Below the pieces are notes generated by a model that searched no databases, was not told the DNA's origin, and worked only from the letters and a program-made list of their open reading frames with translations. A program made the translations under genes and the position numbers. Positions 24,495 through 31,004 of a stretch of 48,112 nt of DNA are shown piece after piece. This stretch comes from Rhodopirellula sp. (GTDB lineage: Bacteria; Planctomycetota; Planctomycetia; Pirellulales; Pirellulaceae). Positions within the stretch are counted from its first letter, which is position 1. Each line of letters opens with the position of its first letter. The DNA lies in assembly GCA_002701385.1 (NCBI GenBank), contig NZVD01000056.1, forward strand, positions 1,573 to 49,684, in the 5' to 3' direction.

Positions 24495-25550
24495 TTAGTC
24501 GTCCCAACTTAACGCTGCGCCGCTTTGATATTCAGTCACTCGCGTTTCGAAGAAATTCTTTTCTTTAGCCAGGTCCATGGTTTCACTCATCCATGGGAAA
24601 GGATTGGAACTTCCGTACTGAGCAGGTAAACCAATACGTTCCAACCGTCGGTCAGCGACGTACTGTACGTATTCCCGGAACAGATCACCATTGAGTCCCA
24701 TGACACCATTAGGAAGGCAGTCTTTAGCGTAATTGATTTCCAGTTCAACCGATTTGCGAACGCGGTCGACCATCTCTTGCTGGAACTGTTCTGTCCACAA
24801 TTCGGGATTTTCAGCTTTGATTCCATTAATCAGGTCCAAACCGAAATTCAAGTGAATTGTTTCATCTCGCAGAATGTACTGGAACTGTTCACCAATGCCT
24901 GTCATCAGGTTTCGACGATGGAATGACAGCACCATAACAAACCCTGAATAGAAGAAAATCCCTTCCATAATCAGGTAGAAACCAATGAGATTCTTCAATA
25001 ATGCCTGACAACCTTCGAAGGTCGATGTGGAAAAGTCTGGATCGAGCACTTCAGCGGTAAGTTCCATTTCAAACTCGTCCTTCGCAGCGATGGACGGGAT
25101 TTCACGGTACATATTGAAGACTTCGCCTTCATCCAGACCAAGGCTTTCCACGACATACAGGAAAGTGTGCGAGTGGATCGCTTCTTCAAATGCCTGACGC
25201 AATAAGTACTGGCGGCATTCGGCATTGGTTACATGGCGAAAGATAGCAAGAACCAGATTATTACCTACTAGGCTTTCCGCTGTTGCGAAGAAACCCAGAT
25301 TTCGCATGATGACCAGACGCTCATCGTCGGTCAACTTGTCCGACTTCCAGGTTTCAATATCCTTGGTCATCGGCACTTCGGTTGGCATCCAGTGATTGGC
25401 ACAACCGTTGTTGTAATGCTCCCAAGCCCAGTGATACTTCAGAGGCATCAACTGGTTTACATCGACCTGATTACAGTTAATCAACAATTTATCCCGAGCA
25501 TCAATACGGCCGGTGTTTGATTCTAGTAAGTCATTTACTGGAGATGACAT
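24495..25550 (-). CDS. nrdB: Ribonucleotide reductase beta subunit, class Ic signature
   Basis: A 351-residue R2 subunit that holds the metal cofactor initiating radical chemistry for dNTP synthesis. The six metal ligands read E92, E123, H126, E196, E230 and H233. The residue at the tyrosyl-radical position is F130 (EAIHSHTF), and the first ligand is Glu where E. coli NrdB has Asp84. As I recall the Chlamydia trachomatis enzyme, its ligands E89, E120, H123, E193, E227 and H230, its F127, and its W51, Y222 and Y338 all map with a constant offset of three, to W54, Y225 and Y341 here. This predicts a Mn/Fe class Ic enzyme. AAGGAGC precedes the start. It follows nrdA by 130 nt and ends at a strong terminator. 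Confidence 0.97.
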
Positions 25551-25680: not shown

Positions 25681-28521
25681 CTACTGACATGCTTCACAGT
25701 CACTGTCGAGACTGCATGCACTCGTCACTGCAGTGGCAGGTAACTCAGGAGCACTTTCCTCCCGTGAGACCTCAATCGCAGCCGAAGCGCTTTCGCTCTT
25801 CATCCAACGCGGCTGGACTCCAAATTTATTGATGTCCACTGTGGACTTTTCAACCTGTGTTGCTGCCAGCGTTCGCAGATAATAAGTCGTCTTAAGACCT
25901 TTCTCCCAAGCTGACATGTACATATTGTGAAGTTTCTTACCGCTTGGTTCAGCCAAATACAGGTTCAGCGATTGCCCCATGTCGATCCATTTCTGGCGAC
26001 GAGCAGCACACTTAATAATCCATTCCGGATCAACCTCAAAGGCCGTATGGTAACGTGCTTTCAGATCAGCTGGGACTCGTTCGATTTCCTGAACGGAACC
26101 GTCGTAGTACTTCAACGCTTCTACCATATCGCTATCCCACAGACCTCGACCTTTCAGCTCTTCCACCAGATCGGAGGTAACCTGCGTAAATTCACCAGAC
26201 AGATTACTCTTCACATAGAGGTGCTTGTAGATGGGCTCAATCGACTGGCAAACGCCTACGATTGTTGAGATTGTTGCCGTTGGTGCAATGGCCATAACAT
26301 TACTGTTTCGCATTCCATTTTCAGCCAACTTCTTACGTAAGGAATCCCAGTCAAGCGTTACACTCCGATCGACGTCGATATGTATACCGCGTTGTTCTTC
26401 AAGCAGCTCAACTGAGTCGATCGGTAACATTCCACGATCCCACTTCGAGCCAACGTAACTGGCATAGGTTCCACGCTCGCCAGCCAAATCAGAAGAAGCT
26501 TGAATCGCGTAATACGAAATTGCTTCCATACTGCGGTCAGCAAACTCCACGGCGGCATCACTGGCGTACCCGACTCCGAGCTTAAACAGAGCATCCTGAA
26601 AACCCATCACTCCCAATCCAACAGGACGGTGACGACGATTGGAATTCTCTGCTTCCGCGGTAGGGTAGTAGTTGATATCGATAACATTGTCGAGCATTCG
26701 CATCGCGACAGTTACCGTTTCACCAAGTTTCTCGAGATCAAGTTTTCCGTCTTTGACGTGATTGGCAAGATTAACGCTTCCCAGATTACAAACGGCGGTT
26801 TCCTCTGGTGAGGTATTCAACAGGATTTCAGTACACAGATTACTACTGTGCACGACACCTGAGTGGTCTTGTGGCGAGCGGATGTTGGAAGGATCTTTCC
26901 AGGTAATCCAAGGGTGTCCGGTTTCGAATAACCGCGTTAGCATTTTTCGCCAAAGCTCAACAGCATCCACCTTGCGACTCATTCGCAATTCACCGGCTTC
27001 TGCCATACGTTCGTATTCTTCGTAACGTTCTTCAAAATCTTTACCATACAGATCGTGAAGATCCGGGGCTTCATCTGGACTTAGCAAAGTCCATTCCGCT
27101 TTATCCCGAACACGTTTCATAAACAGGTCAGGAATCCAGTTAGCTGTATGCATATCATGCGTACGCCGACGTTCGTCACCTGTATTTCGACGCAAGTCAA
27201 GGAATTCTTCAACATCCATGTGCCAGGTTTCCAGATAGGAACAAACTGCACCTTTTCGTTTCCCCCCCTGATTCACGGCGACAGCAGTGTCGTTAACGAC
27301 TTTGAGAAACGGAATCACACCCTGACTCTGGCCATTGGTTCCCTGAATATATGCATTGGTAGCACGCACATTAGTCCAGTCGTTACCAAGACCACCTGCC
27401 CACTTAGAAAGCATGGCGTTATCCGAAACACATTTGAAAATATGACTCAGATCATCACTAACCGTCGACAGGTAACAGCTACTCAATTGCGGATGATTTG
27501 TAGCAGAGTTGAAAAGTGTGGGCGTTGCGGAAGTAAACCGGAACTGAGACAGAATATTATAGAATTCTATCGCCCGCTCTTCTTTATGCTCCCCTTCACG
27601 AATCGCCAATCCCATCGCCACTCGCATCCAAAAATACTGAGGAGTTTCAATTCGCCGGCCTTCAATGTGTAATAGGTACCGATCGAAGATCGCCTGCAAA
27701 CCTAAATACTTGAATTTATGGTCGCGTTGCGGATCTATAGCATTGGCAATGGCTACTAGGTCGTAATCCCGTAAAGCTGGGTCGAGCCGACTGGCATTAA
27801 TTCCATCAATGATGTAGTGCTCGAAGTGACTGCGATATGTGTCTTCTACTTTGTCAAATTCCGGTGCTGCTCCCAACGCATCATTGTAAATCACCATCAG
27901 CATCAAACGGGAAGACACCGTGTCATAGGCAGGGTCTCGTTCAATACGGGAGCGGGAAGCGAGAATCATTGAACGATAGATTTCTGTACTGGAAATCCCA
28001 TCGAATACCTGACGCATTACTTCTTCCAGTAAATCGTCAGCATTGCAAACTTCCTCCAACCCCTGACAGGCCATCACTAAACGACGGCGAACACGATTTT
28101 CATCAAAGGCAACTCTTGAACCGTCTTCCAAGGTAACATGAATTCGAGAGGTTTCTTCTGTTTCAATTTCACTCTCAGGAGCTCTCAATGCACGAACTTT
28201 TGCATGTTCGCTTCTATAAACGATGTAGCGACGGGCAATACGATAGTGCCCGCGTCGCATTAATTCCATCTCGACCAAGTCCTGGACTTTTTCCACTTCG
28301 ATTCCATCGCTGGCCGTCGCCAAAGGCGCCATCTCAGCAAGGATCTCTTCAGTCATACGAGCGATTTCTTCGAGTGTTGCATCTTCCAGCGGCTGAGTCT
28401 CCGCGAGATTCAACTCTGCTCGAAAAGCATTGCTGATCGCCCGAGCAATCAGAGAGCCATCAAAGGGCACCATGCGTCCGTCTCTTTTACGAACATTCCA
28501 TTCTGCCTGTGTACCTACCAT
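25681..28521 (-). CDS. nrdA: Ribonucleoside-diphosphate reductase alpha subunit with two ATP cones
   Basis: A 946-residue class I catalytic subunit, reducing NDPs to dNDPs with NrdB. Two N-terminal ATP-cone-like domains are visible (about residues 7-110 and 127-210), where E. coli NrdA (761 aa) has one. Catalytic residues follow: C349 (SSCYL), then N561, C563 and E565 (NLCTE), C578 (AVCNLGS), the YY pair in the KTTYYLR segment that carries the radical, and the C-terminal shuttle pair C942/C945 (CEAC). The frame extends to 28563, but ATG 28519-28521 has GAAGGAG at ideal spacing. Between nrdA and nrdB, GCGAGG/CCTCGC and CCCTC/GAGGG pairings compete. Transcription probably starts about 750 nt upstream at an NrdR-controlled promoter. 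Confidence 0.97.
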
Positions 28522-28630
28522 TACCGTCACTCCTTCGTAGCGTTGATTTCCTATCATTGTCATTGCCTGCCAGGACGCCTTCGTAGCAACCTGTCACAGA
28601 CAAAAGGAAGACTCTGCCTTCCTACTTCTA

Positions 28631-28655
28631 CGAATTGATCTACATCATCAATTCG
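28631..28655 (-). other. Perfect 9-bp hairpin in the nrdA leader
   Basis: CGAATTGAT (28631-28639) pairs perfectly with ATCAATTCG (28647-28655) around a 7-nt loop. It lies about 110 nt before the nrdA start. No T-run follows on either strand, so it is not a terminator. Confidence 0.7.
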
Positions 28656-28693
28656 ACCTCCACCGCACCGTATATCCATGTGCTTGTCACTAC

Positions 28694-28722
28694 AGTCAGA
28701 CCAGTCAATCACTGGGCTGACT
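28694..28722 (-). other. 12-bp hairpin in the nrdA leader
   Basis: AGTCAG-A-CCAGT (28694-28705) pairs with ACTGG-G-CTGACT (28711-28722): 11 paired bases with one internal mismatch and a 5-nt loop. It is the most stable-looking element of the leader and is not followed by T. Confidence 0.7.
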
Positions 28723-28832
28723 ATTACAACCTGCAAGCATGGGACATAAACGCGAAAGCTTTCAACTCAGGTCCAACCCGAACGAAGCAACATTTATGCC
28801 TTACAGGGCAGCGCCTTTTCCTGGGTACGTGA

Positions 28833-28909
28833 GCTTTGAAGAGCAAAGCGGGATTCTAATTCGCGTTGCGATTAGAACAGACAGAACGACGAGATTCGTT
28901 TCTTAACGA
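28833..28909 (-). other. Three adjacent hairpins in the nrdA leader
   Basis: GCTTTG/CAAAGC (28833-28849, 5-nt loop), TTCTAATTCGC/GCGATTAGAA with one bulged T (28854-28877, 3-nt loop) and TCGTT/AACGA (28896-28909, 4-nt loop) stand next to each other. Three stems within 77 nt suggest a folded RNA domain. Confidence 0.6.
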
Positions 28910-29275
28910 GTCCGGCACATCCATTCACCAATTGCTCGAAAAACTCCAATACTAGAAAAGGGCGTGGGTTGCAACTTACTTGTATTCACCCAACAATCAT
29001 CACACTGAACATGTGAACTGCTTGGAAAACTTCCCACCACTTGCGGGGCACTACACCTAGAAACGACCTTATTTTCAATCCTTGGTCTCGAGCAATCCGT
29101 TGCAGTCCTCTCAAATCCTTGAGCAGGAACTACTTCTTGTTCGATCAATCCATGACTGAAAGCTCATTCCTTGCAGCTTTCCAATCCTTCACGTCTGGCT
29201 AGCCCGATCAACTACCTTCGTCAACCCGACCAATCCTCGCTAGTTCTACAGCGAACCAACGACCAGTGTGTCGAA

Positions 29276-29287
29276 ACAATATATCGT
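29276..29287 (-). promoter_or_regulatory. NrdR box 2, overlapping the nrdA -10
   Basis: ACAATATATCGT (29276-29287) matches 11 of 12 bases of the palindrome in box 1 and covers the predicted -10 (29278-29283). Binding of NrdR here would block RNA polymerase. Its centre is 31 bp from that of box 1, the three-turn spacing known for NrdR box pairs. Confidence 0.85.
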
Positions 29288-29305
29288 AGTGGCAAACAAA
29301 GTCAA
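29278..29305 (-). promoter_or_regulatory. Sigma70 promoter of nrdAB
   Basis: Minus-strand TTGACT (29300-29305), a 16-nt spacer and TATATT (29278-29283). Both hexamers are close to consensus and are interleaved with the two NrdR boxes. Transcription should start near 29271, giving a leader of about 750 nt. Confidence 0.8.
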
Positions 29306-29306
29306 C

Positions 29307-29318
29307 ACAATATATTGT
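29307..29318 (-). promoter_or_regulatory. NrdR box 1, just upstream of the nrdA -35
   Basis: ACAATATATTGT (29307-29318) is a perfect 12-bp palindrome inside a 16-bp site (29305-29320) that matches the NrdR box consensus. Its edge touches the -35. NrdR is the ATP-cone repressor that shuts down ribonucleotide reductase genes when dATP is high; its gene is not in this window. Confidence 0.88.
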
Positions 29319-29320
29319 AG

Positions 29321-29852
29321 TTTCACCGATAGACACCAGCGTTTTTTTGAACCTCCCAAAAAAGCCGTCGCCAACCACCGGTAAAACCCGCTAGCACCCC
29401 CCCGTCACTACGTAGCGTGCTAGCACTTTAGGCGAGTCCTCATGGTACTGAGGTGCTCGACCTGTTGTGATTATCGTCACCTCAAACCACAAGATGTAGT
29501 ATTTGGCGCAATTTCCAAATAAAAGGCAATAGCAATCCGAGGAAAGTCTGTAAACCGCTAGCAGGTAGCGCTCTTAAGTCTCGTATTATGGCATATTCGG
29601 AGGGCCTACTGGAGCAAAGAAAGAGGCGGAGGAAAGCAAGAGCAACAGAACCCCCAAACAAGATAAATAAATGACTGCTAAAACGCCGATTCTTTTGATA
29701 GACCCTTGTTTTCCAAGGCTTATGTACGCGCGGACACCATGGCAAGCAACCTAGCCCGATGCTAATTAACATGCTCGCTAATTAGTCCAACAATTGAAAT
29801 TGAAGCGTTACAATACGATATTTTTCAAGACTACCACAAAAAAACAAAAGCA
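29321..29852 (+). other. 530-nt hairpin-rich region upstream of the desaturase gene
   Basis: No gene is supported here. An inverted repeat GCTAGCAC/GTGCTAGC (29390-29397, 29417-29424) encloses a C-run. A second stem at 29433-29459 (CGAG+CCTCA with TGAGG+CTCG) is followed by CACCTC (29478-29483), which could instead pair with GAGGTG (29450-29455). Direct repeats GCTAATTA (29761-29768, 29777-29784) lie near the desaturase gene, and a possible -10, TACAAT or TACGAT, sits at about 29809-29819. A 96-codon minus-strand frame (29482-29772) has hydrophobic stretches but no recognisable domain, so I leave it out. Confidence 0.5.
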
Positions 29853-31004
29853 ATGGCAACAACGGAACAAACTCCAACCTCACCTCCGTTTTCGATCGGC
29901 GAAGCCCGAAAGATTGTTGGGGGCGGTCTGTTCAAGCACAACGCACTGATTTACTGGACCGATTTTGTGGTCTGTTGGGTTATTGGGTTTTACGCCTATG
30001 CGCACGCCCGCACCTACGCTGCCAAAATCTACCTATCTGACTTTGAACAGAACTGGAAGATGGACGGGATCGCGATCCCCGAATCGAATTCGATGCTTTG
30101 GGCATGCTATGTCGGCACGACCCTCATCGCTTGTTTGTTCTACTACCGCATCGCTATGTTCATTCACGAAATCGTGCATATGAAGGGACGTAACCTGCTA
30201 ATCTTTCGATTCGTCTGGCATGTTCTCTGTGGCATTCCGTTCTTGATTCCATCCTTTGTTTACCATACCCATCTGGATCACCATCGCAGTAAGCACTATG
30301 GGACCGAGCGTGATGGAGAATACCTTCCGCTTGGCCAGCGACCTCCATGGCAGATCATTGTCTTTCTGCTACATCCGTTTGTTGTGCCGCCTCTGGTGTT
30401 CATACGCTTTTTGTTTTTCACACCAATTGCCTGGAGCATCCCCAGTTTCCGACTGTTTGTCCATCAACGCTGTTCGTCGATGATTATCGATCCATTCTAC
30501 ATCCGCCCTTCCGAACCCGCTCAGGCACGTCGACGAATGGCCATCCAGGAACTCTTCTGTTTTCTCTGGTTGCTGTTGCTTGTAAGTGTGGTTTTCTTCA
30601 CTAGAGGCACACTGCCATGGCCTTTCCTTATTCAGTCCTATACCACGGCAGTCATCCTCCTAACACTCAATGCTTTACGCACACTAGGTGCTCATCGTTG
30701 GTCTAATTCCGAAGGCCGAATGACTTTTGAAGAGCAGTTACTGGATTCAGTTAATTACCCTGACAATCCAATCCTAGGTGAACTATGGGCTCCAGTAGGC
30801 CTACGCTATCACGCCTTACACCATCTATTCCCCGGCATTCCGTATCACAATCTCGGGACTGCCCACCGAAAATTAGTTGCTAACCTTCCAGCCGAAAACA
30901 TATACAATCAAACCGGTGCAAGAACACTCAACGGAGCGTTGCGAGATTTATGGCAGCGTGCCAAAAACTCCACTGCGATCAACAGTAGCCCAGAGAATTC
31001 ATAA
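29853..31004 (+). CDS. Membrane fatty acid desaturase
   Basis: A 383-residue integral membrane desaturase. The three His clusters that hold the di-iron centre are H105-EIV-H109, H140-LD-H143-H144 (HTHLDHH), and H320-AL-H323-H324 (RYHALHHLFPGIPYHN). Hydrophobic helices lie at about 32-50, 82-103, 118-137, 167-200 and 233-250. Such enzymes introduce double bonds into acyl chains using O2 and an electron donor. Regiospecificity and acyl carrier cannot be told. The start ATG 29853 lacks a strong Shine-Dalgarno. The gene is divergent from nrdAB across 1.3 kb and is followed by the FGE-like gene after 60 nt. Confidence 0.9.
   Translation: MATTEQTPTSPPFSIGEARKIVGGGLFKHNALIYWTDFVVCWVIGFYAYAHARTYAAKIYLSDFEQNWKMDGIAIPESNSMLWACYVGTTLIACLFYYRIAMFIHEIVHMKGRNLLIFRFVWHVLCGIPFLIPSFVYHTHLDHHRSKHYGTERDGEYLPLGQRPPWQIIVFLLHPFVVPPLVFIRFLFFTPIAWSIPSFRLFVHQRCSSMIIDPFYIRPSEPAQARRRMAIQELFCFLWLLLLVSVVFFTRGTLPWPFLIQSYTTAVILLTLNALRTLGAHRWSNSEGRMTFEEQLLDSVNYPDNPILGELWAPVGLRYHALHHLFPGIPYHNLGTAHRKLVANLPAENIYNQTGARTLNGALRDLWQRAKNSTAINSSPENS

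Follow-up and report, generated by a model that had tools for sequence, protein, structure and literature searches.

A predicted NrdR-repressed nrdAB promoter and a conserved structured leader RNA of about 750 nt in uncultured marine Pirellulaceae

The class I ribonucleotide reductase (RNR) operon nrdAB of the planctomycete studied here appears to be expressed from an NrdR-repressed promoter, in which a distal pair of boxes probably tightens repression, and its transcript would begin with a folded leader of about 750 nt; we regard this joint reading as highly probable. The leader sequence is conserved and structured as RNA, with support from covariation. On the other hand, we infer that NrdR binds here, that transcription begins at the predicted start and that the leader is joined to nrdA. 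The operon lies in a stretch of 48,112 nucleotides (the window); the genome that contains it totals 4.89 Mb, split over 100 contigs. Those close relatives that carry names are metagenome-assembled genomes of planctomycetes, in part labelled Pirellulaceae. The features are collected in Table 1.

Table 1. Features of the nrdAB locus, with positions in the window. Box scores are matches out of 16 to the NrdR consensus.
Feature	Position	Strand	Remark
nrdB, RNR small chain	24495..25550	-	downstream of nrdA
nrdA, large chain, two ATP-cone stretches	25681..28521	-	start corrected to 28521
Predicted nrdA leader RNA, structured	28522..29271	-	about 750 nt
GGA (28551-28549), then Shine-Dalgarno AAGGAG	28530..28553	-	invariant in six genomes
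Hairpin with U-rich tail, terminator-like but short (helix 12)	28605..28623	-	one both-side change
Covarying hairpin CGAAUUGAU/AUCAAUUCG (helix 11)	28631..28655	-	pair test
Long conserved hairpin GUUGUAAUAGUCAGCCCAG (helix 10)	28686..28730	-	17 pairs, 100% paired cells
Covarying hairpin CCCGC/GUGGG (helix 4)	29033..29047	-	pair test
5' leader domain, GGAUUG-rich, model R1	29059..29189	-	aligned in 8 genus loci
Putative NrdR box 1 (over -10)	29274..29289	-	12/16; CGATATATTG core in 9/9 loci
Predicted sigma-70-type promoter TTGACT-N16-TATATT	29278..29305	-	promoter scan
Putative NrdR box 2 (beside -35)	29305..29320	-	14/16; 12-14 across 9 loci
Two TGCTAGC copies between distal boxes and promoter	29390..29424	.	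third at 29557-29563
Degenerate distal NrdR box 4	29455..29470	-	9/16 in the host; 16-bp spacer to box 3
Distal NrdR box 3	29487..29502	-	12/16 in the host, 14/16 in G007
Fatty acid desaturase-family gene, divergent	29853..31004	+	conserved neighbour

The original prediction described two 12-bp palindromes 31 bp apart, with a TTGACT (-35) abutting one and a TATATT (-10) under the other. Both palindromes are in place: ACAATATATCGT at 29276-29287 is imperfect, and ACAATATATTGT at 29307-29318, 31 bp from it, is perfect. Extended to boxes of 16 bp, they leave a spacer of 15 bp. The two promoter elements are also as described: TTGACT (29305-29300, minus strand) lies one base inside the 16-mer of box 2 and adjoins its 12-mer, and TATATT (29283-29278, minus strand) follows after 16 bp. 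This site was the best of five matches in the promoter scan (10/12), in which shuffled sequences gave 1.6 matches on average. No spaced box pair of such quality occurred in 60 Markov-resampled 48-kb sequences. In the whole genome, the spaced pattern was found 9 times per strand and a reversed-pattern control 12 times per strand; one of the matches is exact, and the other 8 on each strand differ from the pattern by 2 or 3 bases. Since the control outnumbers the pattern in total, only the exact match, which occurs once, is above noise.

The same prediction depended on the presence of nrdR and on transcription not starting close to the nrdA ATG. A single nrdR match is present in the genome (G000:C54:41081); the gene is intact and encodes both the Zn-ribbon and the ATP-cone. 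In the host locus, the promoter scan gave no minus-strand site nearer to nrdA. No NrdR box at the threshold used was found within 1.5 kb before nrdR. The locus therefore has the features of NrdR-regulated RNR promoters, namely paired 16-bp boxes with a spacer within 14-17 bp, boxes over the polymerase site of an RNR operon (promoter-like by its sequence) and an intact nrdR in the genome. Together with conservation in all nine aligned loci and with nrdA and nrdB downstream, this makes the promoter, as judged from these sequence features, an ordinary and convincing NrdR site of known kind. The claim of NrdR control is thus supported; it was incomplete in that the distal boxes and the structured leader RNA were missed.

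The nine aligned loci are those of the host, seven relatives of the same genus and G012 from another genus, so that eight genus loci include the host. All nine carry both boxes, with TTGACA or TTGACT as the -35 element and TATATT 16 bp after it. The desaturase-family gene is divergent to nrdA in eight of the nine loci, and the ninth (G001) lies on a short contig. TCGGC-TTTT-like blocks are conserved upstream of this gene. For a wider survey, an NrdA N-terminal query matched 23 of 60 genomes including the host, and 7 of the 8 other genomes of the genus; the one without a match is 69% complete. Box pairs, defined by a 31- or 32-bp register and a summed score of at least 20 within the upstream kilobase (shorter at two loci), were found at 19 of the 23 nrdA loci of the order, and the best pair score at each of the 19 was unmatched in 100 resampled sequences. 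By this definition no pair was found upstream of nrdA in G041, G032, G020 and G048. Between the promoter-side pair and nrdA there are 591-802 nt in the genus, 689 nt in G012 and 158-594 nt in the other ten, which suggests that long leaders are common in the order, the structure having been tested for the genus only. In other Pirellulales (L015, L016, L038 and L039; G025 and G027), at least three NrdR-like boxes precede nrdA in differing layouts. The host assembly also contains another gene similar to nrdA, in this case with a single ATP cone (L025, on the 21.5-kb contig G000:C39), directly behind a gene without Pfam hit that presumably resembles a T4-type primase; this contig is probably a phage contig within the assembly.

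Upstream of the promoter, box 3 is present in all eight genus loci, 181-193 bp upstream of box 2. Box 4 scores 9-11 in seven of the eight, in the same 32-bp register, and only 7 in G001. Because 1.2% of window positions reach a score of 9 and 0.03% reach 11, box 4 is regarded as weak in the host and better in G007. The helical phase of the distal boxes is suggestive only, as the lineages are not independent. In G012, which retains the desaturase gene, neither distal box was found. The two TGCTAGC copies between the distal boxes and the promoter form a spaced pair that occurs nowhere else in the genome. GCTAGC occurs three times in six genomes (the host and five close relatives), once in G007 and G003 and twice in G012, and these copies are possibly the site of another regulator.

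The length of the leader depends on the start of nrdA. The mechanical open reading frame begins at 28563, and homology sets in at residue 15 in all aligned relatives except G006, which is 97% identical. We placed the start at ATG 28521 because of this onset of homology, the frame-breaking indels before it and a conserved AAGGAG Shine-Dalgarno sequence at 28535-28530. With transcription predicted to start near 29271, the leader would therefore be about 750 nt long, which agrees with the distance given in the original prediction. The small hairpins that can be drawn at the Shine-Dalgarno sequence are unstable on their own. A coding leader was rejected, since indels of 1, 2 and other non-triplet sizes occur between close relatives; the longest sense frame within it is 81 aa, from a TTG.

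An alignment of the leader from the six close genomes has 886 columns and a mean identity of 72%, with some blocks conserved almost perfectly. RNAalifold predicted 209 pairs, 34 of them changed on both sides. For the pair test we used 104 pairs in 14 helices, hand-picked as the clearer ones from the 209, and the test is therefore biased in favour of structure. In these pairs, 94.4% of cells were paired, and 32 of the 104 were changed on both sides, a number that none of 500 shuffles reached (mean 16.4); when the partners were slid, pairing fell to 31-47% and both-side changes to 5-11. Helix 10 has 14 invariant pairs out of 17 and none changed on both sides. The fold of the single leader sequence had a z-score of -5.28 (20 shuffles). 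The consensus fold was deeper in sense (-299.7) than in antisense (-226.5), with 240 against 55 G-U cells and 15 against 45 A-C cells. The deeper fold and the greater number of G-U cells favour the nrdA-sense strand as the RNA. In the fold windows, z-scores below -2 were obtained for 13 of 20 in sense and 12 of 20 in antisense, which did not separate the strands. We also folded all eight sequences over the full leader, but kept this fold out of the counts, because the alignment of G007 and G003 is poor in the 3' portion. In the 5' domain (29059-29189), aligned in eight genomes, the sequence AGCUUUC has a dual pairing that could act as a switch.

Rfam gave nothing at the gathering threshold; up to E 5 there were two matches, both implausible. 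A known riboswitch, ribozyme, intron or other Rfam RNA was thus rejected for want of a credible match to a curated model. A model of the 5' domain (R1; 131 nt, eight sequences) gave strong matches in 5 of 396 genomes of the order including the host, all within the genus and one per genome; this search used stricter filters, by which weak matches are lost, and five further matches with E 0.009-0.34 were taken as chance. A DNA search for the leader domain gave matches in 7 of 241 genomes of the family including the host, none of them outside the genus. G012 and L073 share a shorter block around GAGCTTTC and TCATGGATTGAT. GAUAGGAAAUCAACGCUACGAAGGAGUGA is identical in the six genomes, and conservation extends to the Shine-Dalgarno sequence of nrdA. 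GTGCTAGCAC has two exact copies genome-wide; it was rejected as a genome-wide regulator site, because the second copy is within a coding frame and no regulon was seen. Among the matches listed in the open-access literature on NrdR, RNR leaders or riboswitches, CsrA and Planctomycetes, no title or abstract dealt with this leader.

With regard to its function, control by CsrA-family proteins via repeated ANGGA sites, one of them at the Shine-Dalgarno sequence, is the leading candidate, though we hold it only tentatively. ANGGA occurs 9-12 times in the sense strand of the leader in the six genomes, against shuffle means of 3.4-4.9, and 0-3 times in antisense. In G007 and G003 there are 6, where shuffles give about 3, and in G012 there are 5, where they give 3.8; beyond the genus there is little excess, and any of the counts may have the Shine-Dalgarno sequence among its sites. 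Other 750-nt stretches of the window reach the host's count of 9 in 2.2% of cases. GGAUUG is found five times in the host leader and at most twice in 3730 other 750-nt stretches of the window; there are 3-5 copies per leader in the eight genus genomes and one in G012. Among 193 triplets conserved in the six genomes, 10 are GGA, against 4.5 expected from composition, which makes it the commonest of 55. At the sites 29118, 29098 and 29081, the base between A and GGA varies, with A and GGA constant. The A two positions before GGA is invariant at only 6 of the 10 sites. The last two conserved GGA are placed just upstream of the Shine-Dalgarno sequence and inside it.

The placement of GGA in hairpin loops gave varied results. 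Conserved loop placements hold 8 of the 10 conserved GGA, but they also hold 108 of the 193 conserved triplets taken together, and the antisense TCC falls in such placements 7 times. The number of GGA in hairpins was reached by 2 of 100 shuffles in the host, by none in G006 and G005 and by 2 in G012; in the other leaders it was reached by 10 (G008), 13 (L073), 17 (G003), 21 (G001), 36 (G007) and 39 (G002). With a stricter threshold, 29 of 100 shuffles reached the host count. In the lowest-energy fold of the 5' domain, a long-range helix replaces several of the local GGA hairpins. CsrA-family genes are present in all 40 of 40 genomes, with four matches (PF02599) in the host. Of three host csrA genes examined, two nearby paralogs have a VHR motif, which we take to be RNA-contacting in CsrA, and the third is without it. 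At L150 (G000:C19:68500-72500), two csrA paralogs lie about 2 kb apart on the same strand, with an opposite-strand frame of 287 aa between them and a presumably hydroxymethylbilane synthase-like frame beside them.

Several other explanations of the locus were weighed. The leader may instead be a metabolite-sensing riboswitch or attenuator, in which alternative folds, a local GAAAGCU/AGCUUUC hairpin or a long-range helix, set termination or ribosome access. This is unlikely in our view, though several points favour it: the fold is large and conserved with covariation, the two pairings of AGCUUUC are mutually exclusive, the local one is readable in eight sequences, and the long-range one is mostly kept in them, with an A-U to U-A change in G007 and G003. 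However, several other long-range pairs are broken in these same two genomes, no compact ligand core was recognised, and Rfam and the restriction of strong R1 matches to one genus also speak against it. A terminator-like hairpin at 28623-28605 would suit an attenuator, but one such site was found against 1.5 in shuffles, which is no excess. It is still less probable that the main product of the NrdR promoter is a separate non-coding RNA acting elsewhere, such as a CsrA sponge, with nrdA expressed by read-through or from its own promoter. The leader length, the repeated GGAUUG motifs and the single locus of the 5' domain in each genome would fit such an RNA, but the conservation that runs on to the nrdA Shine-Dalgarno sequence, with GAUAGGAAAUCAACGCUACGAAGGAGUGA unchanged in six genomes, would not, and the scan of the host showed neither a nearer promoter nor a terminator above chance.

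The two remaining explanations concern the boxes. It seems improbable to us that they act on the divergent plus-strand desaturase gene at 29853, whether in addition to nrdAB or in its place, despite the palindromic nature of NrdR boxes, the distance of about 350-400 bp between the distal boxes and the desaturase ATG, the conserved neighbourhood and a weaker plus-strand promoter-like match over the proximal pair (29289-29316, 9/12). The minus-strand site scores higher and keeps its 16-bp spacing in all nine loci, and G012 has the gene without detected distal boxes. Least of all do we expect the AT-rich palindromes to be chance or the sites of another regulator. Single boxes with up to 3 mismatches are in fact rarer in the genome than a control (27 against 42 per strand), but the resampled sequences contained no pair, the exact pair is unique, and the pair is conserved in all nine aligned loci, with pairs at 19 of the 23 nrdA loci of the order.

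Returning to NrdR repression of nrdAB with a folded leader, its operation can be pictured as follows. While dATP is abundant, NrdR tetramers that carry ATP and dATP would occupy the two proximal boxes and obstruct RNA polymerase at the -35 and -10 elements, and the weaker distal pair is likely to tighten repression, by analogy with the proposal for Listeria. When dATP falls, transcription would begin near 29271, and the folded leader would be made ahead of nrdA. CsrA-family proteins on the ANGGA sites of the leader, including that at the Shine-Dalgarno sequence, may then provide a second, post-transcriptional layer. With this promoter, a familiar repressor system is extended to marine Pirellulaceae that are uncultured. 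What is new is that a long RNA, conserved and structured, stands between a promoter that senses nucleotides and the gene of an essential enzyme; this implies that the supply of DNA precursors is controlled at a second level. A bolder possibility, which we consider doubtful, is that the leader represents a class of long structured RNA not described before, with up to ten GGA as binding sites for CsrA-family proteins, so that NrdR would set both nrdAB translation and the level of free CsrA. If this is true, dATP-sensing NrdR would link nucleotide supply to the Csr network.

Finally, the locus can be compared with known systems. Spacers of 15-16 bp are described as common for NrdR boxes, with 14-17 bp tolerated (PMC12051234), and paired boxes with 15-16 bp spacers over or near the polymerase site are reported for nrdHIEF, nrdDG and nrdAB of Escherichia coli and nrdRJ of Streptomyces (PMC12176259, PMC12051234). 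Our locus shares with them the paired boxes at an RNR promoter, a similar spacer and the overlap with the polymerase site, but differs in the predicted start far from nrdA, the extra distal boxes and the lack of a box at threshold in the region searched before nrdR. A close layout is that of Listeria monocytogenes nrdAB, which has a proximal pair on the promoter and a distal pair, one with a spacer of 15 bp and the other of 16 bp, and where the distal pair is reported to bind 5-10 times more weakly and is proposed to tighten repression (PMC12051234). A proximal pair and a candidate distal pair give a similar arrangement here, with the spacers reversed (15 bp proximal, 16 bp distal), whereas our box 4 is degenerate, the phylum is another and the boxes are predicted. 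With regard to the leader, the reported CsrA consensus and the glgC layout, with GGA at and just before the Shine-Dalgarno sequence (PMC7652899), resemble our case. As in CsrA/RsmA leaders such as glgC and in CsrB/CsrC, there are several ANGGA, one at the Shine-Dalgarno sequence, a GGA just upstream and csrA in the genome; unlike in those leaders, a stable long-range fold competes here with the GGA hairpins, and the sites are predicted. Propionibacterium acnes nrd genes, for which NrdR boxes and a cobalamin riboswitch are described (PMC3848588), likewise combine RNR genes with boxes and a leader RNA, although in our leader the Rfam search found no cobalamin riboswitch.
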